Assembly: GCF_021155765.1 (NCBI RefSeq)
Contig: NC_060114.1
Span: 21,558,501-21,622,500 of the forward strand
Direction: 5' to 3'
DNA: 64,000 bases
DNA from: Diprion similis
Taxonomy: Eukaryota > Arthropoda > Insecta > Hymenoptera > Diprionidae
Numbering within the stretch: position 1 is the first letter of the stretch; every line of letters starts with the position of its first letter. Below are positions 2,811 to 53,500 of the stretch, in pieces. Under the pieces are notes generated by a model. That model had not been told where the DNA came from, ran no database searches, and saw nothing but the letters and a program-made list of their open reading frames with translations. Made by a program: the position numbers and the translations under genes.

Positions 2811-15234
<12,424 letters not shown>

Positions 15235-23363: not shown

Positions 23364-26300
23364 ATGCCTTACTATAACAGTGGTCACAGCACGTCGACCT
23401 ACAACAAAGGTGAGTAGATTTTATTGCATTCTTATCTCGTGCTCCTAAATTGCTATTTAAGCTTATTCCGTGCATCTGTTTTTCCACATAATCCAGATGG
23501 CGGATCCAGCGGCCCTCCGAGCACATCCGGAGCCGTTGGTACAGGTTCCGAACCAACTTACCTGATGGAGCATTTGGCGACGTTCACCGTGACGATAGAA
23601 ACCGGCATAGTTTATCCCGCCGACGGGATGAGAAGGCTCCTTCAACTTGAAAAGAGCAATGGTATATGGAGTCAGAAAATGCAGCTACGTCTGGAAAGGT
23701 CGTGGGTTTTGATAATGGACAACGAGACCGGGGTAATTTGAGAAAAATTGCCGTTTGGCTGATTCGTCATACATTGAAAAGAGGCTAGAAGCAGCAACAT
23801 TCTTTTTCATATTTCAGGCAGTAATGGAGAGATTCCCAGCCTCATTGATACAGGAACCAACAGCGTTCACGTCCAGGGATCCAATGGAGATGTACAACAA
23901 CATTTTGGTATTCACCGTCGCCGACGACAGTGCGTCCGGCCAACGTGCCGAAATGCACATATTCCAATGTCAGAGCGTCTCCGCCCAGGACCTTGTCGAG
24001 GACCTCAAAATGCTGCAAATGGGGAAATTAGTCCCTGGTGGTTCTCCAAGAGGACCGAGGGGTCACATTCCACCTCCACCGGCTCTCCCTCCTCCGGAAC
24101 CTCCGTTAAACGGTGTTAATGTTCGCGAACAAGTCTCGGCATTCAATGCAGCAAACAGTGAGTCTGACAACGAGTTTGACGTCTTTGGTGTAATTCAAAC
24201 ATGACTGCACTCTAGATGTTCGATCTTTTGTGACGGAACTTTACATTCGCTTTGAATCTAAGATCCAGTCAGGGTTTCTTAATAATGCACTAGTATTATT
24301 TGAATGGGTTAATTTTGTTACTTTCCTTCATATTGACTCAAGACGATCACACATTATGCAGAGTTGTTTTTCATTTCTATAATAATCCACAATTAGCAGC
24401 CGTTGCTACTTTGATAAGCTTACTGGCACTTGAAAGTTTCACACGGCTTACGATTGAATCCTGCGTTTCAGATGACGGAACGAACGACATGTCGCGAGAG
24501 GAGAATATCGACGAGGTGTCGTCGACGTCTTCGGAAAAGTACGAAAGGGACGTTACAATACTTAACCACTGTTTCGACGACATAGAAAAGTTCATAGCAC
24601 GGCTTCAGCACGCGGCGGCGGCGTCTCGTGAGCTGGAACGTCGTCGCCGGAATCGTAAATCGAAGAAGAGGAACCTCGGCGACGGTATGTTGACGATGCG
24701 CGCTAAGCCACCACCGGAGATGGAGTTCATAGACATATTCCAAAAGTTCAAACTCTCATTCAACCTGCTCGCCAAGCTCAAGGCGCACATTCACGACCCA
24801 AACGCTCCAGAGCTCGTGCACTTCCTCTTCACCCCGCTGGCGCTGATCGTCGACGCTTCTCACGACACGAACTACGACCCAAACCTCCCGAACAAGGTGG
24901 TATCCCCCCTACTGACGCGCGAGGCCGTCAACCTGCTGATAAATTGCGTGACCAGCAAGGAGACCGAGCTCTGGCACTCGCTCGGTGACACGTGGCTGAT
25001 ACCCAGAGACCAGTGGAAGGGCCACGTCCCCCTTTACCATCCCATATTCATGGACGGCTGGTCCCCGGAGTACCCGATACCGGAAGACCGGGACCACGAC
25101 CACCTCGCCTCGCTGCTGAACGCGGACAAGCAGAAGAGGGACGAGATCCCGGAGCAGCAGAACCTCGGGGAGCCCTACTACAATCACCGGGACGTCGACG
25201 AGTCGCACTACAGCAGCGACTACCTCGAGTACGAGGGGGGTAGAGAGGAGCGTCCGAGCAACGACTACTTCGAGCGGAATTACGGACCAGCCTCTGACCT
25301 CTACGGCCGCGAGGACAGGGAAAGGGTCGAGCAGACGAGGGCGCACAGCGAGATATCCCTCGACTCGATCGAGCGTGGCTCACGCGGCGTGCCGGTCGAG
25401 CAGCGCGCGCAAGAGGCTTGGCTCGACGAGCTGGTGGCGCGACACGCGAAGATCGTCCAGGTGACCTATCCACGGACCGCGAACAACGACAAGGAGCTGA
25501 CGGTTGTCAGGGGCGAGTACCTCGAGCTCCTCGATGACAGCAGGAAGTGGTGGAAGGCCAGGAATTCGAAAGGGCAGATCGCCCACGTGCCTCACACCAT
25601 TGTCGCGCCTCACAGCAGCTCGACGAATCAGCCCTCCGGCGACAACGACGTCTTCAATAACCCGCTGTACACCAGCAGGTATCAGCGGCAGGGACATGGA
25701 TACAATTACGAGGTACAATATTATTATCGGAGTACTTCTTTACGTTTGGCTGAAAAGTTAAGGTTATGTGGTAGCCCTACCTGTACCGGCCGAGCAAAGT
25801 TTACCGGTCGGTAAAGTTAGGAGTACTAGAACTAAGAAAGACCGTTTACAAGATCCCCGGCAAGTTTTTTTAGTTGGAACCTCAGTTTACGCTATTCAAA
25901 TTTTCTCAGATCCATTTCTGTTGCGTAGAAGGGATGTTGTTTCATTCGTGTTCACCATCATTCGATTAAATAATATTGCTGAATATTTTTTTGGATGGTT
26001 TTTTCTCTTCCTGTCTTCCGATTGAGACGATGGAGCCCCTTCACTCTTGATTCAATTCTTGGAAAAGTTTTTGATCGCCTACAAATTTCTTCCTTGATTC
26101 AGGACTCTGAAGTCGAGGGCACGAGCACCAGTCCAGGACCTGACGCCTCGCATCGTCCTCATGCCATACCGCCTCCGGCCCCCGCTGACTGGGTTCGGAA
26201 AGAACGACTCGGGAAAAAAGGTGAATTTCGATATTTCTAAGGCCCATACGTCAAGCTCACCGACACCATATTATTATGTACATGTGCAACAGATTTTAGA

Positions 26301-29300
26301 CGAGCTCACGTATAATCCGGAAAAAATAAGTACCGGATAACATTCCTCTGTCTTTAAACAGAGAATATCGATCTACTTGAAATTTTATCATGGCGGACGA
26401 ACGATTTTAGAAATTCACGCGTCACGTCATTCAAGTTCTCATTCGTTCGCATTCTTCAATTAGATACGAACGAACTGCATGAAATTTTCAAATTATTTTC
26501 CGTCTTTGCTTTGAACGGTTGCAAAACTGACGTTCAAATATTTTATAATAAATATTGCGTATTTATCGATTAACAAATTCTCACCGTACCATAACTGTAC
26601 GTGTAGCTAGACAGACATAGCATTTCAAAGTGCTAAAGTTAAATATATAAGTACATATATACATACACTTTAACAATTATAACACTTAACACCCAATGCT
26701 TCGTCCAAGTAAATATTAGATGGTTGACGAGTCGAATTTTCGATTGCCAAATGCTTGTCTTGAAGCACTTATTGTTAATTGATGTCGACACCTCAACCAG
26801 ATCGGTGTATACCTCTCGGAAATTTGATCTGTCTAGAAGTTGAATCGTTTTAGTTTAATTAGGAATATCTGTTTGTCCGTTGTCTCATTATAATATGGGG
26901 GTTTCTGTTTGTGTCGTTGAATATATGTGCAATAACGACGTTTGTGGTCATTCGCATGAATCTATCACGTGCATAGAGATACGAAAATTTGTTACCGATA
27001 TACACATTTAAAACATGCGCAATAATCCGTTTTAATTTCTTTATCAGTTTTTCAAAGAATTACGTGTAGCGGAATATAATTTTTTGCGCATGAAAGTATA
27101 AAAATTTCATGAAATTTTCTTAAATGATAGCAAAACTTGCAAAACTTGGAATAAGTAAATGAACATGAAGAAATAAATTACATTGTTGACACGCCTTAGA
27201 AGGCGTGATTGTTTTGTATCACAGAGGTTGTACGATTATTTTTACACGTACATCGAATTACTTATATTCAAATTCCGAAATTAGGACTTGAATATTTCGT
27301 GAAGAAATATTTCCCTTTGCCGTAGTGCTTCGTATTTAGAATGTAAATAAATGTGGTAAGTATTGTTAGAACACACGCACGCCATCATTTGAAAATAATC
27401 CACCACATGCTCGATTATCAAAATTTAGTATCGGTCAATTCCAAGTGTTATACATTTAGTCGACCCTTGACATCGTAGTTATACACACATCTATACGTAT
27501 ACATCATCGCGTAAATTTGTTATGGAATGATAGTAAAATGATTTCTGTGACGTCTACCATTTTAATGTAAGAAGAAAAGAGAGTAAGTAATAAAAGAGAG
27601 AAAAAGAAAGAAAGAGTGAGAATGGGAGTGAACTAGGAGAGGAGAGAAAGATGAAGGAAGAGAAAAAAGAAAAAGAAAAACCCGCTGGAAAACAAAGGAA
27701 CAGCGAACAAACGGAACGGCAATAATTTTAAAAGCTTTAAGTCGCACGCGTGTCGCTTTTCAGTTGTTTCTCCGTTATTTTTAAAAATACTCGCTGTTCC
27801 CGAGGTTGTTTGTCGGTGTGAATTTTTCGTTTTTCTTTTTTCTATAAGCATACCTTGTTTACCGGATATGGATTCCACATCCGTCCAGTATTTTATTGTA
27901 TTGTAATTTATGTAAATCTTTTATTAATAAATATATACAATTAATTATGTATGTTTAAATGTTGTGATTGTTCATATACACGTATAATCTTACAGTTACG
28001 TACTCAGTTTCATGTTCACGCCGTTCATAGACAGATTGTGCAAAGTAAGGTTGTGTCCACGTTATATCTCCCGCATCATCGTATAACTCACGTATTATTT
28101 TTGTTCCCCTGTTCGTCTTTACACCTCGTTAATGTACCCCCGTTGGAGTTGATAAATAGAAAGAAACACCCAACATGCACCCAACGTTCACATACACAGA
28201 CACGAAAAAATTTTCGAATACCGCATGTAGTACGCAAAAGAAACTTCAGAGGAAAGCCGATGAAAGTTTCTTTACCTCCCTTTTTTCGTTGTTTCTATTT
28301 TTTGTCCCCTTTTGTGTCTCTATACGCGCACTGCATTGTGATCAAAGCGTCATGTCTGCCGATACCTTCGCTTCGAATTGTTGCTGCAAAAATTTTTTTA
28401 CCGCTTCCTCTGACAAGAAGTGACGCTACTGCGATTCGAGCCCGCGACGTCTCCACCCCAGTGAAAACACGTCTGCGGCAGGATGAAAATCTCTACTTTT
28501 ATGGTAAGTTATCTACGTGGGTTTTCCAATTGACGTACAGAAACAAGTCGATTCATCGTACGTATGATAAAATAGAATAGCTACCAATCCGCTGGTTCTG
28601 CCGATTCTTCTTTTGTCTGAGTAATTGGAAAACTCATCACGTTTTACGCATGCTTTCGAGGAAGTGCTTGAGGTTCGTCAATTTATCTAACCTCTATCAA
28701 AGTAACTCTAATCGTGGTAAGATCTTCTACCGAAGTAATGCTTTTGTTTCTCCGTCTTGCTAACACAATTGTACGATAACTGAAGGTATGTTCATCAAAT
28801 TACTGCACACTTAAAAAGAACTGGAAGAAAGTTTGCTAACAAGGATGATATTACTGCACTGTGCGACAAGTAGGATAACAGTATTTGATACACTAACCCT
28901 GAAAATTTTACTTCACCATTAAACGATTGACGACCATTATTATCATCAGCACAATTTCACACTCATCAATATGCTACTCATTCGAAGTTGCGGTGTACTT
29001 ACTCAAATTTGGTGAAGGGCATGTGATCGGTGACGCTCTTCCGGCGTTGAAGTATCTCAAACTGTTCCTTCGATTGGTTCACAGGTATTGCAGGAGATTC
29101 GAGCACGTCGAGTGACAGCCTCAGCGTTGACGATCTGTCGAGTATTTCACCCCAAAGTTCACGGTCAAAGGCCAGCACTATGCGTCAGAGCGACGAGTCT
29201 AGTTTCGCGTCGAATTCAAGTTCATTTTCCAAGGCGCCACCACCTCCGCCCCCTCCACCCCCGTTACCTTTGCCAATGTCAAGGAAGTCCACTGGTGATC

Positions 29301-30860
29301 CTCCAAGTTTTAGTAAAAGCGGGACGTCCAAGAGTAACAAATCGCTTGGGCCAGGTGAGGGTGAGACCATTCTAACATCATTATGGGATCCTTAAATTCA
29401 GAAAACGCCATCTGCTGGCAGTGAATATGCAGCACTGATACGTATTTAATTATAAAAGTGATCATTTATCAGACATTTTATCCCAAAGTGGCTCAATGTC
29501 ACTAAATGAAATTATAGCAGCTGGCACGGTAATTTCTGTACCTTGATATTCGCTAAATTTAACAAAAACGATCAGCCGATTATGCACACCGACGCCATGT
29601 TGTCATAACCATGGGATCCTGATTTCGGAATCACGCTACCGGATGTTATGTAAGTCAATTTGCTGTAATTCCAATTGTCCTTGTAGGACTCAGCAGCCAG
29701 GACCAAATGCAAGAAGAGCTCAAATACGTCCTGACAATGTTTCGCGAAAAAAGACGGAACTTGGATATCGTGAAGACACCGGACGTCTGTATCGATAATC
29801 GCTCTACGCCTAGTGAAGTTCAAAGCTGGCTGAGAGCTAAAGGATTTTCAGATAAGTACGTATATCATAGCCGTTGGCTATCGCGAAGATCCATCTTTGA
29901 CAACATAGCACTTAAGGTCATGTAGTATTCCTACCCTTACCGACCGAGTAAACTCACCCTTTTTCTTCCTGTAGTAAATAAACAAAGAAACGGAAAGGGT
30001 TGAAATTTCGACGGTGCATCGTTCTTTCTTTGAGGAATTCAGGAAAGTTATTCATATCCCGAAAATCGTCAAATAAATGTGTGATTTTTTTGAGATGCAT
30101 TACCATTCCCACATTTCCTGCATTTCAAGTACAAAACTGAAATACTTTCCGCCATTCCGGAAAGAATGAGGCATAAGATGTGCCATCGTGAGACCGTTTT
30201 CATGCAATATTGAGGTCGCTAGACGAGAACTAGGAATTACAATAATTTCGTCAATAAAAGGTGTTTATCTAATATAGGAATAAAAAGCGTGATTTTGCTC
30301 GATCGGTAAAGATAGGAGTACTACATGACCTTAAGAATGTGATACTTTGAATCAATTTACTTGTGTAGCTGCTAATTTCAATGATATTCTCACCATGTCG
30401 TTGCACTCGTCTTAACGTCATACTGTAATCAAAGAAATCAGAAGCTTTGTTAACCTTTCTTTGTAAAAGTCAACATAAAACAAGTGAAAAATTGCCTGAA
30501 ATGTTCTTGTGAACAGTATACAATATACTTATTTATTCACAGAACCTGTCGGCAACTCCGAGGAATGGCTGGCTACGAGTTGTTCATGTTGTCGAAGCGT
30601 CAACTTGAGCAATATTGCGGGCAGGCAGAAGGCAGGCGGCTGGACAGCCAAATCACTTTATCTCGTAACGTAAGAGGGGTGAGTTGATCTGTTTTGGAAG
30701 ATAGAAATTGTTTTTTGACTCAAAGTTGAATTTGTTAATTTTTTTTTAATTTCAGTACAAAACGGCGCGATCCAACGAACTGAAACAAATTTTGGACAAA
30801 GTACGCCAAAGAGTTGACGGCGACGAAGAGTTTCAGAACGGAGTAAAAAGCAACGTGTGA
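23364..30860 (+). CDS. Eps8: Epidermal growth factor receptor kinase substrate 8 (Eps8), nine coding exons
   Basis: Cytoplasmic adaptor linking receptor tyrosine kinase signalling to Rac and capping/bundling actin. Exons: 23364-23409, 23497-23732, 23818-24187, 24472-25712, 26103-26220, 29085-29354, 29687-29855, 30543-30678, 30756-30860; 2691 nt, 896 residues, with all phases consistent. Visible domains: an N-terminal PTB domain (about 28-150), a long linker with acidic, low-complexity DRDHDH and ERNYGP stretches, an SH3 domain (about 544-597, containing KIVQVTYPR, RKWWKARN and GQIAHVPHTIV), a polyproline run near residue 721 that could bind SH3 or profilin, and a C-terminal SAM-like actin effector domain (about 770-870, VQSWLRAKGFSDK, YELFMLSKRQLEQYC). 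Exon 3 must use the donor at 24188 (TTTG/GTGTAA), because only that keeps exon 4 in frame. Exon 4 is much more GC-rich than its surroundings. Arouser (aru) is a fly Eps8-family protein. Confidence 0.94.
25758..25832. mobile_element. Short copy of TTAA-associated inverted-repeat element in Eps8 intron 4
   Basis: Starting just after TTAA (25758-25761), the sequence GGTTATGTGGTAGCCCTACC, then TACCGGCCGAGCAAA, is followed at once by its approximate reverse complement (TTTACCGGTCGGTAAA, then GGAGTACTA). The same terminal sequences bound the larger element at 29916-30330, so this is an internally collapsed relative. It lies 45 bp after the exon 4 donor. The distal TTAA is not intact (CTAAG). Confidence 0.6.
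26221..29084 (+). other. Eps8 intron 5, no gene seen
   Basis: A 2.9-kb intron between exons 5 and 6. It holds purine-rich low-complexity DNA near 27570-27690 and AT-rich stretches. Open frames on either strand (for example around 27951-28580) are basic, aromatic-rich and without domain features, as expected from AT-rich non-coding DNA. Confidence 0.6.
29912..30334. mobile_element. 415-bp non-autonomous inverted-repeat element (MITE) flanked by TTAA
   Basis: TTAA occurs at 29912-29915 and 30331-30334. Between them, the left end GGTCATGTAGTATTCCTACC and the right end, read in reverse complement as GGTCATGTAGTACTCCTATC, match with few differences for at least 50 bp and recognisably to about 75 bp. 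There is no open frame of transposase size. A duplicated TTAA target is the hallmark of piggyBac-like insertion, though these ends are not the classical piggyBac CCC start. It sits in Eps8 intron 7. Confidence 0.8.
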
Positions 30861-34248: not shown

Positions 34249-35973
34249 TTACCAAAATCCGCCGGCGCTGCGACCACCCGGAGGATTATTGACGCGGATG
34301 CAAGCGCGACGAGCCTCGTCGACGTCCTCTGAAAATTCAGAACGATAGGGAAAAAAACTTAGAGAAACTAGCGGAAACAAAACACCATCGCGTTACCGAC
34401 GGAGCAGCAATGAGCGGGAAAGACTTACCGCTGATCGAAAAGGTAGAGTCCTGCAAGTTTCTTTGACCCTCGAGACGCGGACCCTTTGCTGACGGGGTGA
34501 CCACAGCTGACTCTGGCAAAGTTGGAACGCACGAGAGGTTCTGCAATTTCGGTTTCAGGCTGTCCACTGAACCGTTTGTGTAATTGTTGCTGATCGTCAC
34601 TGCGGTCGCTGCAGCAGCCGCTGCAGCCGCTTTAGCGGCTTCCCTCGCCTTCGCCATGGCCGCATCTTCTTCGGCGTATCGTTTCAACTCCGCTTCTGTC
34701 CGAGCCACTCCGCGTGGCTTCTGAAAATTTACCCTCAAGCTTGTATCTTATTAACGATTCGCCTGCCTCGACACTCGTTGTCGAAATCAGGGTGGCCAAA
34801 AATTTTGGGGAAACAATTACCTGGCGTTTTCCCAGTTCTAGTAAGTTACTGCAACTATAGCCGATTTAAATTCAATTCGAATTGAAGAAAAATATAATGC
34901 ACAAAAAAGTCAGTTTAAGCCAATTTGTTTTATCGATGAAAGAAAGTAAATTTCTTGCCTCAAAAAAACATTTCTAATCGACCAAATAAAAAATACTTAG
35001 ACATTTCCAGAATTTGCAGCTGATTCCCGATCATAAATTATTGGACATAAATTACCTTTTCTCGTTCGGAAATAAGGTCGTAGACGTACGGAGGGTACAC
35101 CGGAGTTTCCACAAATCTGCCATAGCCGTGAACAACTTTGACGTCACATTCGTCGACGCAGACGCGGCCGTTGACGATTACGTATTCGGGAACACCGTGG
35201 ACTTCCATACCCTGATTGGTTTGGACATGAAATTTGTTGATGCATGTTCGGACGATTAAGGCATACTCGTGCAGGTGACTGTTAAAACTGACCTCAAAGA
35301 TGTTGAAGTCGACTGCTTGCACGTGCGTCTCGGCAGAAATGGTGCGTTTCCTGTTTGGGTCCCAGATAACGATGTCCGCGTCGGAGCCGACGGCTATCAC
35401 ACCTTTTCTCGGGTAGACGTTGAATATCTTGGCAGCGTTTGTGCTCGTCACTGCGACGAATCTGGTCGGGCTCATTATCCCAGCCTGAACTCCCTTTTCC
35501 CAAACAACGGACATCCTGTCTTCAACTCCGTTGACGCCATTTGGAATTTTGGAGAAGTCGTTCTTCCCAAGTGACTTTTGCTCCGAATTAAAGGTGCAGT
35601 TGTCACTTCCGGTCACTTGGAGACCGCCCCTAGTCGTCAGGCAAACCATTTTGTAAGCATTGTAAATTTAATCTACCGCGGTGTATGATCCCCGTGATGT
35701 GACTTCAGAGTGGATCTCACCCTGGCAGTTGGCAATCGATAAATAAACATTTTACTGGTCAGAAAAGAAATTCGTCAAGAGTTTACGCCATGATATAAGG
35801 CGCGAGTTTGATCTTCTGCCGATGTAGGTTTACGTATGCTCATATTGAATTTATAGTTAATTTATCTCATGAAATTCAAATATAGTTTCGCAATTGCGGA
35901 GACATTTTTTACCCATCAATTTCTTTCTATCCCTAAATCCGTAGGATTCAATGACTGATTAAGAAGAGAAAGC

Positions 35974-36024
<51 letters not shown>

Positions 36025-39000
36025 CTCGACTTGTTTGTCGCGTATTTTTGCTATCTGAATTTCGCTGGTGTTACAATAGTCTTGCAGCACGTAAGACAGG
36101 CTTCTTCGACCTACTCATAAAGAGACTGCGTAATGTGTTTATACTACTGACTCTTACACGCCCACGCGACAAAAAATTATCATACAAAGTGCCTGTGCAG
36201 TTGCATCATCGCGCAATAGTGTAGGCATGATTAAACTCTCAGGTTTTGTGGTGAATTCATTGACGGACTTCAGGGGGAATTAACGATGAAGAAATAAATG
36301 TGAGAAACAAATTGACAATGAGTGACAAAATTATATCGATCTTGTACTATGGTTTCTGCTTTTGCAGCAGTTAATCTACTTACTGAGCAAGTTGCTCAAT
36401 CAAATATGCAGGTGTTGTTGGATCTGGTCTTAACGGAGGATTTGTGATCAGCTTTATAGCCTTGTTAACATCCTTTCCGTATTGATCTCTACCGTCAATC
36501 CCGAGGCTACTCGCTGGGGGTTCCCCGAACACGACGACACCGTTGGCGCGTTTAGCAGCTATAACATCGGCCGATGATTTGCTCGTCACAGGAGATACGT
36601 ACAGCGGACAATTTACCTAAATGTCAGATCATACAAAGTTGTCTAATTTCGAAAAGATCCCCTCAAGATGGTGTTTCCTCACATGGTACAAAAAAACGTA
36701 TCATCGCTATACTACCGTGTAATAACCAAGTAAAATAAAAGTAAAAAACAAAACGATATTACGACAAAAAGGCCTCTATACTGATGAAAAATATTCAAGC
36801 TATGCTTAAAAGCGTCACGGGCGAAAAAAATGTGCCAAAAGTGGTGCAATAAAAATCTACTGTAAATAAAATCAGCGTGCACGATCCTGAGTTTTGCAAC
36901 TACACACACCAAGTCTATACTAACAATAAGGAAGAGAACGAGCAATCTCAACGCAGGTACAAGTGCTGCATGGCCGCGGTGCGGCGGCGTCCGTTTATCT
37001 CCGCAGTTGGCGTAAAGTCAAACATGTCTCTTCCGACCAGTTTCACGGCGCTTATTGAAAAACTATGGAGACTTACGTTGCAAGCTGTATCATTAAATTG
37101 TAAGGTGTGTCAGGATCAGGCCTCAGAGGAGGGCTGAGCACGTGTCCAGCTGCGTGCCTCCAGCAAGAGTGTGCGTACTGTGTACCGTCGGTTCCTAAAG
37201 CAGCTGCCAATGTTTCACCCCACACTATCACACCGCGTCTTCGAGCTGCCTCAACTTCCTCGGCGGCACTCCGACTCATCACATGCACAACATACAGCGG
37301 GCAGTTGACCTAGTCGTGCACAACTACTATTTAAAAAAATTGTGGTAAAAGAAAAAACGTGCTAGAAAGGTCGCATGGTGGGGAGAAAACTGATAATAAT
37401 GATCGGCAAATGAAATATTGCTTGTGCACAATTGTACGCCTGGATCCGCTGCTCGTGACAGCGAAGATACGGTCAATGGTTACCTGATTAGCGATCACGC
37501 AGGCTCTGTTCACCGCTTCAGCTTCAACCTCTTCCGGGCGTGACATCTCATGACCCTCAGGTCCGGTCACACCGGCAGCCAGAAGTCTTTTGGTGTTCTG
37601 AAATTGTTTCGGACGGTGAATACTGACGTCTTTTAGAATTGAGAAGACGTCTTGCCGAATGTTGAATATTGCTTGTCTGCCACTGCCATAGACTTTTAAA
37701 ATGGTGGAAAGAAAGAGTCAAGGAGTGCGTCAGGCTCACCTCGGCAATTAGGTCACCATTTTCAGCGTGGACTTGAGCTACGGCTCCGATGTCTTTGCAC
37801 GACGCAAAAACTTCGATCAGCTCGGGATCCCTAAGCATGTAAGTGTCCTTGTAGGCCATGAACACTTTGAAACTGTTTATTCCGTGGTCCCTGGCTAGAA
37901 TTGCCATCTCTTCTTTGACCTGGGAACAATTCGATTTATGGTTCAGATTTAGGCTGTTCAAACTTTGCAGAACGAGCCTAGGTAAATTGATTTGTGGTTG
38001 CGTAAAAAGTCGAAAGTTGACTTTAGCGAGCAAGCAAACTGTGATTTCCATCAGTTCTGGGGAAAAAGAGAAAGCTTCGACACTTCTAATCTTTAATCTC
38101 CATGGTGAGTTCGTTGGTTTGAAAGAGGCTCGTCCCGGTTACAGATGTCTCACGAGCAAGTATACCATGGTGCGTATATATAAGCGAGTATTCGTGGATG
38201 AACCAGCTGCCCATGCAAGGAAATTTAAAACGTTTCCGTATTCCCGTTCTGAGAGTTCTGGTCTCTGCCTCTCATTATGTGTCGTTGCACTGGTTCGTCG
38301 GTTACCAGAATATCATTGGCTGAGTGGAAGATAAAGAATAACTGGCCTATGGCTCTGCACAGTAAAAAGCAAAGCTGACGTTAACTCGCTCGTTTTAACT
38401 ACAATAACTGTCCGTCTCGTTTTGCATCGAACACTATTGCTCTTTTTACTGATAGTGCATCACCACGTAAAAAATTCATCGTGAATTCAAAGTTTGGTTG
38501 TTTCGCTTTTTGAAGTGAATTCTTTATTGTTTTTCTCGTATTGATTCTGCTTCTGGCTTAATAATAATGAGTCAACGTCATAAGACTGTTAATTGTTAGA
38601 TACTAGCGGCTTGTTTGAAGAACGACCTACTTTTAATCATGTAAATAGCAGAAGGCTTGTAAGGATGAACTACATGGAAGGAATATACATAGATAGAACG
38701 ATTCCTCCCATCCACTTGCTCTATAAAGTATTATATCTACAATTTGTGGAGTACCTACTATAAACAAGGCATCAAGCACATGATTGCACAGTTGTGCAAG
38801 AGGTTACACATCTAATTGCTGAAAAACTAGCCCAGTTGACTCGACGAAAATAATAATATTTTCCCACCATGTCAGTGAGAGAATGTGGCCAAGTGTGGGT
38901 AGGCATACTCCGACCGCTTAAAGAGCTAAGAGACGAATAATGCAAATTAATTGACCCCCGTTTCGGCGCAGCAGCAGACTGACCACCAGCGTCTCTTAAA

Positions 39001-42000
39001 TGCCGACGTCCATTAAGCATCATCAAAGTTATAAAACGCACGGTCTGGTAGTTTGATCACCCTGCTGCAGAAATGACAGTGCGTGGAGGATGCGAATGCA
39101 GGAAGTCCCGCATTTAAAGCCTCAACAGAAAAGTGACGCTGATCATTGATTCGCGGGCCTACGGGCTGAAGGATCCACTTGGTAACGACTCCTCACCTTG
39201 CTGTTCCACGAAGTCACCCCGATGTGCAGCCCGTAGTCACAGCAGACCTTTTCGTCGGCAGTTGCTCTGTACCTGTCGTAAGCCTCGAGGAGCGACTCCC
39301 CTTGCTTGGGTATTGCGAAGTCTATAATCATGGTGGTACCGCCAGCGACAGCGGCCTTGGTCCCCTGATAAAAATCATCCACCGACTTGGTCCCCATGAA
39401 TTCCAGCTCGAAGTGGGTGTGAGGATCAATTCCTCCTGGCATCACATATTTCCCTCGTGCATCTATCACTCTGGTTCCACCTGGTATTATCAGGTTGCGT
39501 CCCAGCTGTCTGTGAAGCAAAATATTATCCTAAGTGGTATTTCTAACGCTATCGATGTACCATCGTACGATATGTAAAGTTGCGGATGAAAGGAATCAAG
39601 TCAACGTCGCGTTCGTTCGTTGGCAGTGTTTTAAGAATAGTCTGGACGTCAAAATACGTGGCGGCTCTCGATCTGGCTTGTATGTCTACCGTGACAAACG
39701 CTTCCGTTGCTGGTGCCCCTGCAGTCGTGATCACGCATGTGTTGGAGGGATTAAAATGATTCAGCCAATAATGGTGTGTGCAGAAGGGCGGACATTAGCA
39801 TGCGTCCGTCGATCCTGACAATCGTTCCTATATGACTACGGAGTAGAAAGTAATTAAGAGAGCATACTAATTGCCGATGTGAAGTAGATAAGGTGTGAAT
39901 TAATTCTACACCACGAACGATTCACACCGCGATCGAAGTTGATGTAATTATTTACCATTTTTACAGTATGAAAATGGATAAAATTACACAAAGTTGCTCC
40001 TCACGGTTCGGACTATTGGCTTATTTTCTTTGCTTTTTCAGAGTATGATGATAATTAGTACAACCCACTTGAAACGTACACGTGTATTCCAAGTTTAATT
40101 ATCGCAAAACACAACGCGAATTGTTCTCTTCAGCACGATACTGCGTGTGTTTATTTTATTTACATTAAAATATCATTTTAGCACCCAGCGTGGGCAATAC
40201 CCTCTGAGCTTTAAACTAGCGTGTACGTAAATAGATTAGGAAATACTCTAAAAATAGACAGAAATGTCTCTGTAGTACGTGTATGAGGTTAGCTGCAATG
40301 CGAAGAATATTCTATTGTTTTCAATAGCGGTTAGATTAGGGAAAAAAACACTATTAAGAGCTGTTTAAAACCAAACCGGTAGTTTTGATCTCGCGTTACT
40401 TTGTCGGCACTTGTTCCTTATAGTACCGTGAAATTATTTTCATTGTCTTCAATTATTATCACGCTGACATAATCCCATTCTCTCTTTACATTTACACTCT
40501 AATGAATACTTTCCTTTCAGTATCTAATTCATAAGGAGAGCATCAAAGCTAAGAGCGTGAAATTTGTAGTATACCTCTTCAATGCTCTCAGGTTCGGTAT
40601 CTCAGTCATTACGGGTAATCTCGTTTGGCCTCCATTGGCAGTGAATTGAAATTGGTAATGACCATGTCATCGACTTATCGCCGAGTCTTGATACACCACT
40701 TAATGTTATCTGAACCCGAAGCTCAGTTCGAATTTATTCATTATAAACGCGATATGAAAATGTGTAAGCATAATATGTGAATATATTTCAGGTCCACGAA
40801 AAACATTGCAAATTTTTTCCACAGTAATAATGGCCAAGATGTTTGCAGGGACTATTTCTGGTCGAATTATTGCAGTATCAGCTAAAGCTGAACCATCGAT
40901 CCGAAGCAATTGCGCAGTGTATAATAGGCGTGCTGTCCGCGCTTAAAGATTCTTGACGAAAAAATGGTGGGATTTGGAAGTTTGCCCGAATGCGGGCATA
41001 TTGTTTGGGGGTTTGTAACTCTCAACTGCGTTTGACTTCACGGATTTCGGCACAGTCCTCTTTGAGGTCGTATTGAAAGAGGAAGGTGTTTATAATGGTC
41101 AATTATACTCTCAGGATTGTTTAGGTTTAGAAAAAGCTCCCTGTCCATTGGCCTTGAATATAACTGATTCAATGATCCAGAAACTCTGCAGTGATATTGA
41201 CGCGGCGTATGTTGGCGACTATGTGACTGATCGTGAGTCACGAATATGAGCTGGGTGTTTTAATCTTAAAATTAAATCGGTCAGGCCACCCTCCGGCTTT
41301 TTGTTCACTGGGCACCAACAGCTTGGACTAGTTTCAAGGTAGTCCGAGTTAAAGTTACACCCCAGGAAAATATATCTGCCCTCACACTAGGAAACGCAAA
41401 GTGGTCAAATGCACGCTACGTGTTGGGATTCGGCTTCATTGTTTTGTGCAGTAAGAATTAAAGAAGGACAGACAGTCGTTATAATTGTCCATGCTTTTCT
41501 CAATACTAACTTGATCACACCGTCTTCAACGTAGACGTCGTTGTCCACAATTTCATCCTCGTTAACGATTTTTCCATTTTTAATGAGAAGCCTGTTTTGA
41601 GCGCTCTGAAAATAAGAATGAAAACAGAGAACATGAGTTGTAAGTAAAAATAGTGTGAATAATAATAATAATGGTAGTGACTCCGTCATGTGAAATTCTT
41701 CGAGTCACTCATGCATAGAGATATAGGTATACAATCATGCGAGTCAGGTTTATTTCGATAATCCCTTTCCCGCTACTTGGATCATCTATTTTTAGGTTTC
41801 GACTTTCTCCGCATTACAGGGGAAGATAGTTCGATTCCTTAAGGGGTTTTCACAGCGCTGGATTATATCCCAGGGCGTTGTCCTGCGGTTGTATTTGCAC
41901 CCTCGCGCTGGCAGGGTTCAAGGTATCAGCGCCACCTACGTCCATGCCCAACCCTCTGAAGTGGCCACCAATATAGATTTTCTCAATACAAGTCGTCAAC

Positions 42001-44231
42001 CTGGTCGCTATTCATCAATTACATATATTTTCCCAATTCATGGAGTATGTATCATGAAAATGTATAGTGTAGAGACTGCATAACCTGCACAGTTGTTCAG
42101 ATTTTAGACTGTACTCTGCATCGCAAATGGAAAAGAAATAACGAAACAATAAACCGCATGGACGAGTTCATCAAAACCAAGGATTGTGGAATGAAAAGTT
42201 TTTTTCGACCACATCGTCTTCACGTTTTGAATTTCATACATTTCTGCGATGCTCTGTTCAACATTAATACACCCACACGGAAGCGCTCGAGATTTAGCGC
42301 GGAAATTCTCTAGTACCGTATCGATCCGAGCGGAAATGGAAGGTCTGTGCCCTGGCATGATATTTTCAGCCACAGTAGACGGTGAGACGCTGTGAACTTT
42401 GAGTAATTTTATTTCAGACCTTGTCTATAACCAACCCTGAGTCTGAACTGCCCGACAGGTGAAAAGATCATTGACTAGATAAAGAGTGCAGTCACTGAAT
42501 TGAAGACTTTATATGAGAAGATTGTCGTTCGGGATAATGAAAAACGATAAAAATAAAAATATAATCAGCCGGGTATTTTGTATAGGTAGGTACTCTCTTT
42601 TCCTCGGACTCTGTATAATGAATTCCGAACAATGAGCGTAAAGCCTTATTAAATGACGACCTAGAATTGCCATAGCTCGACGTAAACGTTGCGGTCGGCT
42701 AGATTATAACGTGCTCGTAGCCTCGGGAATAATATATAATGGTATCGTACACTTTATCTAGTAACAAGCCGATTCATGCGCCGGTTCCCGGCACTTCCGG
42801 AAGTAACGTATGGAAATTTTCACGTGTCCGCCATGGCTGTATGGGTGACAGCTCCGGCAGGTAACGGTCAATGACAGTTTAATAAAAAAAAAAAAAAAAA
42901 GAAGAAACAAAAGAAAATGTTCTGATCTTCGACACACCTGCAGATACAGTAAAGAGCCTCTATAACATTTTACCCTTTTCACATCGCAACAACTCGTTAT
43001 ATTCATTTCCATGGAGACACGCGTTAGTGTTGATATCGATTCAGCGCGGTACAGCCGCGACGTCTACTGCAGATATTCTCGCAAGTCTAGTTTTTCAGTT
43101 CCTTAATGGCACAGGGAATTCGAATATTCAGTAGCACGTGACACCGTGTAGTCTTCAATTGAGGTCTCCGCGCAACTTTCTCATAATCATTTCATATACG
43201 GTATATCTAAACCTGCAGCGGTATCAACTGCGACAGTGTAGGGAGATCTTCGCCTAGTTAATTTTTCGCTTTTGTTATGCAGACTATAAGCAAGACTTTC
43301 TCAATTCATATTCCGTCACAGTCAACTGCCAGTCGTGAGCGGATGCTAGGCTGTGCATACATAGATTCTCTTTAGACACACCAGAGTGAAGGTCACTTGC
43401 AACGTATGCTAGGGGCTTATGGCAAGCGAAAAAACTACTGATAATATGTAGTCAATTTCAACTAATTTCGGTCGAAATTCATGATTCCGAATTAAAACAA
43501 CATTGTCATAACTGGGCAGTATCGTGGCGATGATAAACACTGTGCTTTCATTCAGCGTCCAGTCCCTGATCCAGATAGCGAATCTATCAATGGATGGCGT
43601 GCGGTTCACTTGTTTTAAACCATACACGATGTGTACCAATCATAGACAACCGATAACAACGATGAGGAGGTACACACTACGGAGTAGAGAGTGTGTTTTA
43701 TATCCACGGCTGAATGCAGATACCGCCTAGAGGAGAAAGAGGGGATAAATGCACTGTGAACAACTGGAATAGAGCGGTATCGCCGTCAAGAACATATACA
43801 GATACGTTATCATGAAAGAAAAGACGTGATATGGTGGAACAGGTATTTTCACAACCTCGGGTTCAAGGGTTGGGACTAAGAGTGGCTTATTTGACAATCG
43901 GCGCAGCGGCTGATCGCAGCCGATGAGGATTGAAACCGAAAACCGGTTCCAAACCGAAGCAACTCGTTCATGTTCGAATGGATTTCTGCCCGCCTTTCAA
44001 TACCACCGTTGACAAAGCTAATTTTTGAACGTTCTAACATTCGGTGCCATCATCAGTACAGGCGAACGTACACACTGATCGTTACCTACAGCATAAATAG
44101 CTTATTACGTAACCAGCGTCGGTTTACATTCATCCTACTACATAACGGGCTGCTTTTGTCGCGTAATACGTAAACGCGTGATCGTTGCTTACCTGGAGGT
44201 GAATTGGCACCTTCTTCACCGGTGTACTCAT
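34249..44231 (-). CDS. CRMP: Dihydropyrimidinase / collapsin response mediator protein, alternatively spliced
   Basis: Cytosolic amidohydrolase-family gene whose isoforms serve pyrimidine breakdown (dihydropyrimidinase) or neuronal cytoskeleton regulation (CRMP). Exons: 44193-44231, 41511-41605, 39197-39509, 37740-37919, 37484-37597, one of 37077-37309 (6a) or 36384-36616 (6b), 35056-35629, 34429-34720, 34249-34328. This gives 1920 nt, 639 residues, with all phases consistent. The protein starts [13 protein letters not shown], then [13 protein letters not shown]. Metal-centre residues in shared exons are H74 and H76 (DPHTHFE), K167 (the lysine expected to be carboxylated, [10 protein letters not shown]), H200 (AQVHAENG) and D334 (GSDNC); the remaining ligand H256 is supplied only by exon 6a. 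The tail after about residue 516 has an alanine run and ends [11 protein letters not shown], like the CRMP C terminus. Introns 2 and 1 are 2.0 and 2.6 kb. Confidence 0.95.
35975..36022. repeat. AG dinucleotide microsatellite
   Basis: Twenty-four AG units in the CRMP intron between exon 6b and exon 7 (CT on the transcript strand). The tract is pyrimidine-rich in the RNA and lies 46 nt outside no exon, so a splicing role is only a possibility. Confidence 0.9.
36384..36616 (-). CDS. CRMP: CRMP gene exon 6b (CRMP-like version)
   Basis: 233 nt, identical phases to exon 6a and 460 bp downstream of it. It encodes [19 protein letters not shown], so the position of H256 is proline, and the WRHAAGHV segment is replaced by [18 protein letters not shown] resembles vertebrate CRMPs. 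Acceptor ATTTAG, donor GTAAGT. Inferred product: structurally related but catalytically dead protein. Confidence 0.93.
37077..37309 (-). CDS. CRMP: CRMP gene exon 6a (dihydropyrimidinase version)
   Basis: 233 nt, phase 0 in and phase 2 out, same length and phases as exon 6b. It encodes [14 protein letters not shown], with the metal ligand H256, then [13 protein letters not shown] and the WRHAAGHV segment typical of catalytic dihydropyrimidinases. Acceptor GACTAG, donor GTAAGT. Joining both 6a and 6b would shift the frame, so they must be exclusive. Inferred product: active enzyme. Confidence 0.93.
39510..44192 (-). other. CRMP introns 1 and 2, nothing further assigned
   Basis: Apart from exon 2 (41511-41605) this interval has no coding segment I can support. 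A poly-A run lies at about 42884-42900. Open frames such as those at 42104-42373 and 42758-43012 show no family features. Confidence 0.5.
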
Positions 44232-47581: not shown

Positions 47582-50500
47582 TTAAACTGTGATGGTAAAG
47601 TCTTTTGGTGACTTGGAGAGGGCGTTGAGCGTGATCCCCTTTTTGTGATGGAGTTTGAGCTTCATGTCCATGTCGCACTCAGCTTCGCTTGTCTCGTGGG
47701 CATCCATAAAGCCGGAGGGTGGTTTCAGCTCCAAGGTTGACATCTCGTTACCCCAGTCTTCGTTTCTCTCGCGGTTTATAGTTTTAACGGTCCGCCAAAA
47801 GTCGCGGGGTTCATCCAGCAGACAAAATGACTCGACAGATTTTCTCTCGTTAAGCTCTTTTGCTCGATTGCCGCAGACACTTGGAGCTTGCAACAGCCGA
47901 TTACAGACCGTGTTTGCAGAATGACTCGATGATACGTTCGCCGAATACGGACGCATTCCGGCCTCTGATAATTTTAATATTGTCCGAATCCCATTTGGAT
48001 CACGGCCTGGATCAACTGAAATATCTGGCGTTGCTCCACGACTCCTAAAAAAATCAGTGTAGCAAAGTGAAAATACCTTATCAAGCTGGATTATGTGGTC
48101 CATTTCACATCTGCCCGAGCCAGCGTTACTGCATGGGCAAAAGTAAGTTGCTCCAATCTCTAAAAAATGTCGCAAACATTTGCACGCATTAACACAAGGT
48201 CTTCAGTCAATGTTGCACACTTTTCTCTACTTTCTACACTAGTATAAGAATGCACAAATCGAATGTGGTTGCATTCTGTAAACTTGATGATTCAGAAGTA
48301 TAGGAAAGTGTACCGCATTTTACGACAAACGCTGCATTTTGTACAATATACATTGTATATTTGTAGTAAATTGTAAATCTTACATAGTATTATTCATTCT
48401 ATAATACCCAATGTAAAAATACGCAATGCACTTTCATCGGAGCAAATTTTACATACATTCCCCAGTGGTTAGATCAGTTCACTTTTTTCCACATGCCATG
48501 CAATCGAAAATTATTTTACAACAAAGTGTAGCTGAGTAAAGAACGTACAGAGACTCCATACCTCTGCTTTTCCAGTCTAGGAAAAGTCTTTCGTTCAGAA
48601 ATTGGTGACGCTTCTGTTGATGTGCTCGATTCTTGCGTGTGGTACATCACGTCTGATGTGCATTTGATGGAAAAAGTAGACAAGAAGTAACGAGTGAGAT
48701 TAGCACAGTATTAGCTGCTCCAAAATTGACACAGAAGTCCGAATACTAACTTACTATGATGAACCGCCCTCGGGACCCGAGCCAATCGTTGTTCACGACT
48801 TCGATGGACCCCGGAGTTTGGCCCCGGCGATCTTGCTATCATCGACGTTGGTCCCGAGTCGTCCAGATGATTTGAAGACTCTGTTCGACTGCTGGTACCA
48901 ACTTCCGTATCGCTATCAGATCCTAGAGTATCGTATTCCTCTGATTCCGACTTGAAAGACTTGGATTTGCGAGGGGAACGTCCTCGAACCTTGGCGTACT
49001 GATCCATGTCACGCTAAAAGAGGTTTAGCAAATCATCTTTGGATTTGCGCTGTCGCAAAATGAGGCTGATGACTTAAGTTTCATCATTGCCGGCATACCT
49101 GAGCTCCTTGAAGCATCGTCTCTCCGCGCTCGTAGAAGTAGGCCTGCCGCATAGGATTAGCAGATAGATTTTCTTGCTCAGGAAGGTGAAAAGTAGCGTA
49201 CGGGTATATATCCTCAGAATACTCGGGGATTCGTTCAAGACCATGATTAACTTCTCGGCAGGGTGACTGATGCCCTGGTTTTCTGGCAGTTGCGTAGTAT
49301 TGTTCTCTCTGCTCCATATTATGTTTGTTGTCCAAAGCCGCTTGGGTTTGAGAAGGCGGATCATTTGCTGCTCCGGCTCTTCTGGGGTCTGAAATGCGTT
49401 GTTGCAATGAATTCAGAATGCATCTGTTTAAAACGTTGAAAAATAGATACTTACGCGTCTTCAAACAAAAGCAAACGCCACCAACAGCCAATATCACTGC
49501 CAGTACTGATACAACACTAGGAGCGAGGACCTGTGCGTCCAAGTACAACGGAGTTTCCTCGACGTCTATCATGGAATCATCGAAGGCTCGTTTTCCACTG
49601 TTGTAACTTGAGGTGACGAACGTATACTCTGCTTGTGTAGAACCAGCATTGTTATACGCCGTCAGTCTTAATTCGTAACTGGTACTACTTGTCAGGCCAA
49701 CTATCGTATACCGCGAGTGCGGTCGAATGTCATTCGATGCTAAAGAAGAGTATAATAGTTTTTACGTTTGACGTAGAGTGGTTAATGATGATAACAAAGA
49801 AGTACAATGAATGCTTACCCAAATGCCACTTGTCAGAAAGCTTTCTATATTCAACAGCAAAGTAAAGAAGTGGGCATCCACCATCCTGCCAGGAGGCTAA
49901 TTCTAATAGTACTGAAGTTAGATTGGACCTGATGAGATGCTGCTTGGCTGGAGCAATAGGCTTTGACCCCTTAGTTCTTGCACTCTCGGTTTTGCTAGCA
50001 CTTCCACTTCCAATGCGATTAAAGGCTGCTAAATTGAATTGATACATGGTCCCACATTGAAGTCCTTCAAGCAAATAGGTATTAGCTCTTCGGTCTATTA
50101 TAACTTCCTCCCATTCAGCTGATTCTTTTCGATAAGCCAGCAAGAATCCTTTTATTGGTGAACCGCCGTTGTCCCCTTGCTTCCACTGCAGTTTAATTGC
50201 ATCGGTTGTCGTTCCAGTAGCTAGAAGCGTTGGTGGAGTTGGTGGAACTAGACACAAAGTGGGAAGTTTACCAATTAGCTGAAAAGTTGGATAGCAAAGC
50301 GGGGTTGATATATTGTTTCACATACGCGCAGGGCCACGGCCCGACAATATTCAATCTGCCGCCAAACTATGAATACCAGTTAAGGTAATTAGATAGTATA
50401 GTTCAGCAAGGCGTCGGGGATGATCAAATTTGTGACTCAAATGAAACTTCTGCGTGATGGTTTGCCAATTATTAAGGATTTTACCTTGGACTTGTAAACT

Positions 50501-53500
50501 GTAAACAATTTGGTCCAATCCCAGAGAATTCCTGACGTGACATGAGTAATTGCCTTGGTGACCACGCTGCACAGTCCTCAGAAGAAGAGTGTTGTCCAGA
50601 CCAATCTCCAATCTGGAATGATTCAAAACCGAGTGAGAAAACTTCGAACAGCACCGCTCATCAAATGCGACACACCATCCGGAGCTAGTAATATGTGATG
50701 TGGCTTACCTTTGTTGTTTTTGCAATTTCACATCACCGAGCCTCCACTCAGCTGATGGTCGTGGATCGCCAACAAATAGACATGCAAGCGTAACGTCCAC
50801 TCTCCACGGAACCGAAACCATACCACCGAACGAGATGATTGCAGCTGGAACTAATTTTCAAACATTGTTGATTTTCTGTTCGGAAATCGGAGCTTTAGTT
50901 ACGTCAGATCTACGATTGCAAATTTGATTACAAAAATTTCATTGATTCACCTGTTGAACTTGGCTGCAGTTTGATGACAGCAGATTTCGAACCTTCGCCC
51001 ACTTTCGTCCATGCCGTAACCCAAGCTTCATATACGTCTCGAACCTTCAAGCCCATAGCATCGTAGTGCAAATTTTGAGCTGGGACAGAATTTGGTGTAA
51101 CCTTTTTTTCGTGACCCTGATCATACGTTCTGATGTAGACAATGTATCTCGTCAGTACGCCATTCGGTCTGCGTGGCGGCAGCCAAGAGATCACAACTGA
51201 GTCCTCCCCACTGGTTACAGCCTTTATTTTCTCTGGTGCTTCAGGAACTGCGCAGGTGAAAGTATTGAAAATCAGGTCAATATTGTACAGAAGCTGATTG
51301 TGAGATGAAACGGTTCATTTTTATCAAGAACTCTGAAATATTGGTTTACCAGTTTCCTCCGTGGTGCAGGATACCGGACTACTGCTGACACCTTCGCCGG
51401 CACGAGTGTAAGCCAACGCTTGGACAGTGTAGTTTGTGTAAGGATTTAGCCCATGCAGAACTGTGCTCAGAGCATGAGTAATTTTTGTCTCACGAGAGCC
51501 TTGAATTTCAGACGATGTGGCGTCATTTGCTGCTTCGTACAGAAGCTTATACCCTTGTACGACACCGTGTACTTTGTCGGACGGTGGCGGTTTCCATGTG
51601 ACCTGGACGTTTTGGGCGGTCAGAGCAACGCAGGCCACGTTCTGAGGTGGAGCGCTAGGTACTGTGTCATAAAGTAAGGATTAGCCACATTTTTGTCCCG
51701 TAAGGGATTGCTAAGAAAAAGAACGAGACTTATGATCTTACCGTCTTCTAAAGTTTGTGCTATTATCGGATCTGACCCAGGTCCATCCCCTTTGCTATTG
51801 AAAGCCATGACGACCACACTGTACTGAGTGTATTTTTCTAATCCTGTTAGCCTGTAGTTGTAGGAACCATCGCCATTTCCCATTATGCCAACCGGTGTTG
51901 TGTTGACTGATTTTTCGTCATGACTAAAAAAATTAAGATGTTTTTAATCCTTGAGCAAAAAGCCTTTATCCGCCAATTGATCTGGACACTAAAGAAGACC
52001 ATAATAATTTGTAGTACCAGTACCCTAAATTTCTGTATGCTATATTGTATCCAAGAAGTTCTCCATTCCACAATGATCTGTCTGGTGGTTGCCAGGAGAT
52101 CCTGAGCTGCTGGGGTCCCAAGGGTTCGACAGACACCTGTCTCGGCGGTCCACTAGGAATTTCAACGTCAGTTTGTACCTGAAATAAAGAGTAAGGGACT
52201 CCATTGGATGAGTGAAAGATTAAGCTGAGTAATTGTCTGAAGATAATATTGATCGATGTTACTAACGTGGAGTATGTCGCTGGGAGCCGACGTTCCCAGA
52301 TGATTTTCAGCGTAGACGCGAAAGTGATACGTGGTTGCCGGCTTCAACGGTGTCACAAGAGCAACTGTCTTGTTACCAGTGACCAATTTTTGAGAGTTGT
52401 GGGCGTGCCAAACGTCTGTTGAAGAATTGAATATGTAAGGATTATTAATCCATTGCAACAGGGTGTTGAAAAAAATTAAACAATTTCTCACGAGCGTTTA
52501 CCCAAGCAGGATTAATGGTACAAGAATAGTTTATCGGGTTACAAAGAAGACTCTCGATAGAAGTGGGAACTAAGGTGGAAGTGAAAAGAAGGAGGAGATG
52601 TAGATGTGATTTGCGGGTGTCGAACTAGATGCTTTTACCCACCTTGTGCTTCTTTGTATTGAACGACATAGCTGATGATCGGAGAGTCGGGGTGAACAGG
52701 GTCCGAATCGCCGGAGGGCGGTGACCAGGCCAAGAGTATCGAGCGACTTCCTTGCTCGACCACGCGTAAGTTTCGTGGAAAGTTCGGTGGTTCTTGTACA
52801 AGGAGATGAACGTTTGCGCGGTCGTGACCGTAGGCGTTGCTGGCTACACACGTGTATTCGCCGCGGTCAGCGTGACCAGCCTCCGATATTCGCAATTCCG
52901 ATATCATGCCTCGCGGAACTGGTGAGTTGTGTAAAGTGTATCTGAATTTCAAGAACAACGGCTACGTCATTCAACCATCAACTCGTCGTGAAAATCACTA
53001 ATATTTGTGTAATAGTTTATACATTGGGACTCACTTTGAGATACCTCTAAGCCAGCCATACTCGCGATGACAAACTTTATATTGTTTCACGGGTTCACGG
53101 AAAAATGTTAAATTTATAAAAGTTTTCAAATCAGAAGTTGAAAACCCCTGATTACCAATCAGACAAAAATTTGGCTAGCCGACTTTGAAGTTACCATAGA
53201 AGTACAATCATCTTTCGTATCACCTAAAGTTTTGATATCACACAAAATCCAAATCATCACACTCTCTGCATAAATTAATTACGATCCGCGAAAATCGCGA
53301 TGAAATAGTCACGTACTCGGATTTGTGGCTTTGCGTTGGGCTCGTGAGCCCTTCGTATTTAGGGTTCGCGGTGTGGTCCGGGCTGCCTACATCAACTATT
53401 AGCTCCACCGGCGAGTGGCGCGAGGTAGTCTGGGGAGACCTACGTGAGTGGATTGGATACCAACCTAATGTCGTAGTTAGGGTCGACCCGACTGCCACGA

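Follow-up and report, generated by a model that had tools for sequence, protein, structure and literature searches.

A Diprion similis CRMP/dihydropyrimidinase gene with two predicted mutually exclusive exons that differ in a metal-binding histidine

The analysed window, a stretch of 64,000 nucleotides of Diprion similis DNA, contains a CRMP/dihydropyrimidinase (DHP) gene on the minus strand (44231-34249; exons modelled by following splice borders and the open frame), in which two homologous exons of equal length, 6a and 6b, appear to be alternatives. Judged from the sequence and by analogy with the fruit fly, the gene is very probably arranged as in that insect, with a 6a form that would act as a dihydropyrimidinase and a 6b form that would be a catalytically dead CRMP, mainly of the nervous system. 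Dihydropyrimidinase carries out the second step of pyrimidine breakdown. In the proposed mechanism, splicing in 6a would supply all six dinuclear metal ligands and give a working enzyme, and splicing in 6b would keep the fold and the CRMP-like tail and lose the ligand at position 256, giving a dead CRMP found chiefly in the nervous system. An enzyme and a predicted pseudo-enzyme would thus be made from one gene by the exchange of 78 residues, and, because five of the six metal ligands are common to both forms, the isoform-specific loss of catalysis would be confined to one exon. We infer that the two forms are spliced, expressed, and active or inactive here in the same way as in the fly.

Gene model and the exon pair

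On the minus strand, coding exon 1 (44193..44231; 13 residues, then GTAAGC) is followed by shared exons 2 (41511..41605), 3 (39197..39509, bearing ligands H75 and H77), 4 (37740..37919, bearing the carboxylated-lysine position K167 and H200), and 5 (37484..37597). An intron of 174 nt (37310..37483) separates exon 5 from the DHP-type alternative, exon 6a (37077..37309; residues 248-325), which carries ligand H256 and the segment WRHAAGHV. Exon 6b (36384..36616) lies beyond a 460-nt intron (36617..37076, GTAAGT...AG) and is itself followed by a 754-nt intron (35630..36383), shared exon 7 (35293..35629, bearing ligand D334), shared exon 7b (35056..35211), in which the amidohydrolase fold ends, and shared exons 8 (34429..34720) and 9 (34249..34328). 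Exons 7 and 7b result from the splitting of a large exon downstream of 6b by an in-frame, stop-free intron of 81 nt (35212..35292), after whose removal either isoform has 612 aa; this refinement leaves the exon-pair finding unaffected. If retained, the intron would add 27 residues ahead of GMEVHGVP, a site at which no insertion was seen in five of five solved chains among the matches listed. In its overall layout and at both its N- and C-terminal ends, the gene resembles that of an insect.

It had been predicted that 6a and 6b, together spanning 36384..37309, agree in length and phases, and this is exact: each has 233 nt, is entered in phase 0, and is left after two codon bases, the codon being completed by exon 7. 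Each exon is preceded by AG and succeeded by GTAAGT, and in each only one of the three forward frames is open across the 233 nt. The two peptides are identical at 37 of 78 residues and the two exons at 20 of 77 third codon positions; this level of residue identity, with third positions near chance, indicates an old duplication. When 6a was searched against the 64-kb window using tblastn, 6b was retrieved at E 1.3e-17 (48% identity), and the reciprocal search also gave about 1e-17, so that, as far as sequence comparison goes, the likeness is not due to chance. A third copy of the exon was not seen within the window, where the next matches had E values of 0.23 (6a query) and 4.4 (6b query), and neither 6a nor 6b, each compared alone as a 77-residue piece, matched a Pfam family.

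The reading frame constrains how the two exons can be used. Joining both creates the junction ACG TAA, an immediate stop, and skipping both leads to a stop after eight codons; a full protein therefore needs exactly one of them. Together with the published fly gene, this frame logic strongly implies that 6a and 6b are mutually exclusive. According to the part of PMC3228551 that was available, mutually exclusive tandem exons are characterised by similar length, the same phase, conserved splice sites, and homologous sequence. The pair resembles such exons generally in length (233/233 nt), in frame (same phases), in splice-site type (AG/GTAAGT), and in homology (the tblastn match above), but differs in that the swap takes away a catalytic metal ligand.

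A fly CRMP gene had been invoked as an instance of the same kind of switch, and that arrangement is indeed published. The available text of PMC8652244, which summarises Morris et al. 2012 (Genetics 191:1227), describes exons 9a and 9b of fly CRMP as alternatives that exclude each other: 9a forms are non-neuronal, resemble DPYS, and have the conserved histidine, 9b forms are neuronal and resemble CRMPs, and pyrimidine catabolism is supported only by the 9a form. Excerpts of two further articles describe a change of a zinc-binding His to Gly between fly CRMP isoforms, numbered 192 in that article's own scheme (PMC7954323), and regard the fly CRMP gene as the one for dihydropyrimidinase (PMC3650022); in the retrieved portion of PMC8442445 the mention is confined to the reference list. 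Term look-ups in the accessible portions of PMC3303723, PMC10153444, and PMC8131560 returned nothing on the exon pair. The literature search thus found the fly case; such a pair in another insect was not found among the matches listed, which is not proof of absence. The Diprion gene and Drosophila melanogaster CRMP share the plan of one gene with two exons that exclude each other (predicted for Diprion), one giving a DHP form with the histidine and the other a CRMP form that, in the fly, is described as being without catabolic function (PMC8652244, part of text). They differ in the replacement, which is Gly at a zinc-binding position in the fly (PMC7954323, part of text) and Pro here, the fly pair being known by description. 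Since the fly arrangement has already been published, the window gene adds one more case to a switch already known and is no new phenomenon. Deep conservation would be a reasonable conclusion, resting on the fly gene as described in these papers, and with a second species it becomes possible to test when the switch arose and how it relates to the vertebrate situation of separate genes.

Metal ligands, the CRMP-like tail and predicted activity

The ligands of the two zinc ions (H, H, K, H, H, and D), whose positions are taken from the human enzyme, were aligned to the solved human dihydropyrimidinase (2vr2) as H75, H77, K167, H200, H256, and D334, with a constant shift of 8 in the numbering. 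The three parts of the original prediction that concern these residues all agree with the alignment: 6a bears the histidine (VVHVMS) at residue 256 of the spliced product, one of the six ligands; 6b reads VSPVTS, with Pro at this position, and lacks the segment WRHAAGHV; and the other five ligands fall in shared exons 3, 4, and 7. With 6a the protein accordingly has the complete set of six ligands, and with 6b it has five. None of the six is altered in either of the two vertebrate DHPs or in any of the 18 bacterial DHPs aligned. The bacterial sequences derive from 80 loci kept of 311 confirmed prokaryotic DHP loci in genome contigs; from these 80, a hand-picked subset of 18 entered the ligand alignment, the diagnostic sites, and the larger trees, and 9 of these 18 entered the smaller tree set, while no relatives were found in viral contigs. 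Among the CRMPs, position 256 is changed in all four sequences aligned, to Asn in CRMP5 and to Lys in the other three (CRMP1, 2, and 4), and the ligands kept number two of six in CRMP2, three of six in CRMP4, and three of six in CRMP5, CRMP1 being present only in part.

The best solved match of the 6a product was human DHP (E 4.4e-196, 656 bits), against 600 bits for CRMP2, as computed with a 639-aa version that includes the 27 intron-encoded residues. Against the NCBIfam dihydropyrimidinase model TIGR02033 (cut-off 393.25), the corresponding 639-aa versions of the 6a and 6b forms scored 580.9 and 569.7 bits, respectively. Because the 6b form also lies above the cut-off, the model score does not discriminate the isoforms, and we counted these near-equal scores against the preferred explanation. 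The complete ligand set and the best match to a vertebrate DHP make it a well-supported prediction that the 6a form is an active enzyme. For the 6b form, the loss of one ligand, combined with fly catabolism that occurs only with the 9a form, argues soundly for a non-enzyme.

Given the chemistry of amidohydrolases, the histidine missing from 6b is a ligand of one metal of the pair; the 6b form might therefore still bind a single metal, and the five ligands that are left would permit such one-metal binding or residual activity. It is nevertheless improbable that the 6b form is an altered amidohydrolase with one metal bound or with another substrate. Such an enzyme would be in keeping with the intact state of five of the six ligands and of Y172 and N355, which would be substrate positions by the human numbering and are encoded by shared exons (a third such position, 305, was set aside as the expected residue is absent in human DHP). 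However, the one ligand that is lost is unchanged in 20 of 20 DHPs aligned (2 vertebrate and 18 bacterial) and has been replaced in all four CRMPs (by K in three and by N in one), and support of pyrimidine catabolism is described as lacking for the fly 9b form (PMC8652244, part of text).

Exon 8 encodes a 15-residue alanine-rich stretch, which links the amidohydrolase fold to a CRMP-like tail; the tail begins in this exon and ends with the 16 final residues and the stop in exon 9. CRMP C-terminal tails are characterised by NL..S.FS.S ... R ... PPGGRS, and these two exons encode a stretch of that kind. In a single comparison, the tail matched that of CRMP5 at a BLASTP E of 5e-10, and none of 2000 shuffles reached the local score against CRMP5, nor did any of 2000 against CRMP2; in a whole-database search, the tail stretch alone scored 4.6 bits against CRMP2, which is not significant. 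These comparisons indicate homology between the tail of the window gene and that of the CRMPs. Lying in shared exons, it is carried by the enzyme form too and cannot tell the isoforms apart.

Compared with vertebrate proteins, the 6a form shares the fold and all six ligands with DPYS, and the 6b form shares with the CRMPs the fold, the loss of ligand 256, and the homologous C-terminal tail. In contrast to the window gene, vertebrate DPYS and DPYSL/CRMP are separate genes, and the enzyme form of the window gene additionally has the CRMP tail. The vertebrate CRMPs have also lost more ligands (four of six in CRMP2, three in CRMP4, and three in CRMP5), versus one in 6b. Unlike in those proteins, the ligands that 6b retains are encoded by exons that the enzyme also uses, and selection for catalysis should preserve them in the CRMP form too.

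Splice sites and exon choice

At positions -5 to -24, the pyrimidine fraction is 0.40 at the 3' splice site of 6a, which is pyrimidine-poor next to the AG and has extra AGs at -16 and -19, and 0.55 at that of 6b. The corresponding fractions for shared exons were 0.85 (exon 2), 0.75 (exon 9), 0.40 (exon 8, with AGs at -15 and -21), 0.45 (exon 7), 0.50 (exon 4), and 0.50 (exon 7b). The acceptors of 6a and 6b look weak, yet some constitutive ones are no better.

Weak-looking 3' splice sites on both exons would suit a situation in which one exon is a relic that seldom if ever enters the transcript, leaving the gene with what amounts to a single product. We consider this very unlikely, as each exon is open in one frame and has kept its length, phases, and donor, with clear homology despite identity at only 20 of 77 third positions, and as both exons are in use in the fly (PMC8652244, part of text).

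Several means of selecting between the two exons were considered and rejected. RNA pairing gave no signal in this one species, the best duplexes among the three introns around 6a and 6b having z values of 0.0, 1.1, and -0.7 against 60 mononucleotide shuffles; likewise, the RNA around the 3' splice sites of 6a and 6b did not fold with unusual stability (z of -0.69 and +1.96). Steric exclusion, which presupposes a very short intron, is unlikely given the 460 nt between 6a and 6b, and incompatible splice-site classes do not apply, since both exons have GT-AG borders.

Two sequence features deserve mention. Exon 6b starts with GTAAAT (36611-36616, minus strand), so that joining exon 5 to 6b re-forms a donor-like CAG/GTAAAT, as at recursive splice sites. 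Recursive splicing here could help to skip 6b; we give this low weight because the GTAAAT bases also encode the Val-Asn of 6a and of both vertebrate DHPs. In the intron between 6b and 7, a perfect (CT)24 tract on the sense strand (36022-35975) could be a candidate site for a polypyrimidine-tract protein.

Affinities of exon 6b, age of the pair and flanking genes

The original prediction labelled 6b as CRMP-type, a label that its own sequence weakly supports. We defined diagnostic sites as those at which the two vertebrate DHPs are uniform, CRMP1/2/4 are uniform, and the two groups differ, with CRMP1 contributing only from residue 248 on. At the eight such sites in exon 6, 6b is CRMP-like at three and DHP-like at one, and 6a is DHP-like at four and CRMP-like at one. 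Shared exons 2-5, 7, and 7b contain 49 such sites, of which 22 are DHP-like and 12 CRMP-like in the window gene; within exon 5, five of eight are CRMP-like. The label is favoured by the diagnostic sites of 6b and by its tree position with CRMP1/2/4; against it, tree support is unstarred, and raw identity is no closer to CRMPs, with 41/78 and 44/78 residues identical to the vertebrate DHPs and 40/78 and 43/78 to CRMPs. When the 6b peptide was compared with solved proteins, DHPs and CRMPs were matched at about 1e-21: Tetraodon DHP came first (1.4e-21), CRMP1 followed (4.3e-21), and human DHP (1.4e-18) ranked under CRMP1, 2, and 4. That the best solved match of 6b is a DHP, marginally above CRMP1, was also counted against the preferred explanation.

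In a tree from the 78 columns of exon 6, 6b grouped with CRMP1/2/4 (support 94/89, unstarred), and in a 392-column tree of the shared exons, the window gene was placed outside vertebrate DPYS and the CRMPs (84/79, unstarred), with CRMP5 sitting with DPYS. The smaller set without CRMP5 gave unstarred supports of 92/90 for 6b with the CRMPs and 56/26 for the shared-exon placement, and leaving out the bacteria reduced the support for 6b with the four CRMPs to 62/16. Forcing 6a and 6b to be sisters cost 3.0-4.4 log-likelihood units; all five tests preferred a tree with the two apart, and the sister grouping was not rejected by the AU test (p = 0.18, 0.21, 0.12, 0.10, and 0.29). Holding 6a with the DHPs incurred no likelihood cost. 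For the shared exons, neither the placement of the window gene with the CRMPs (AU p = 0.33) nor that with the DHPs (p = 0.28) was rejected.

This pattern leans towards the trace expected of a pair older than the vertebrate duplication, and is not significant. Conceivably, though we regard it as rather unlikely, the exon pair predates the insect/vertebrate split; the bilaterian ancestor would then have possessed a single CRMP-tailed gene containing the two exons, and vertebrate DPYS and CRMP1/2/4 would be duplicates that kept one exon each. If so, an exon switch became separate genes in vertebrates. Such an ancient pair fits the position of the window gene outside DPYS and the CRMPs (84/79), the grouping of 6b with CRMP1/2/4 (94/89), the cost-free placement of 6a with the DHPs, and the location of the tail in shared exons. 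Against it stand the AU values for 6a and 6b as sisters (0.10-0.29), the low support for the shared-exon placement in the smaller set (56/26) and for the 6b grouping without bacteria (62/16), the failure of the AU test to reject the other shared-exon placements (p 0.33 and 0.28), long branches, an alignment of 78 columns, and the position of CRMP5 with DPYS. Duplication of 6a and 6b within this insect lineage, independently of the fly pair, would be compatible with the sister grouping not being rejected in the five AU tests (p 0.10-0.29), but is highly improbable given third codon positions near chance at 37/78 residue identity, the change of a zinc-binding histidine in the fly pair too (PMC7954323, part of text), and the fact that all five tests favour trees that separate 6a from 6b, with a margin of 3.0-4.4 log-likelihood units.

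Three other genes were noted in the window. A minus-strand gene at 4218-10751 has PHD, JmjC, and PLU-1 domains above cut-off and looks like a KDM5/Lid histone demethylase. The gene at 23737-29925 on the plus strand looks like an EPS8 relative: its matches to the EPS8 spectrin-like domain and to SAM_3 lie above cut-off, and those to PTB and SH3 lie below it. Upstream of the CRMP/DHP gene, at 49087-59739 on the minus strand, lies a Dscam-family gene with Ig domains and the DSCAM C-terminal Fn3 domain.
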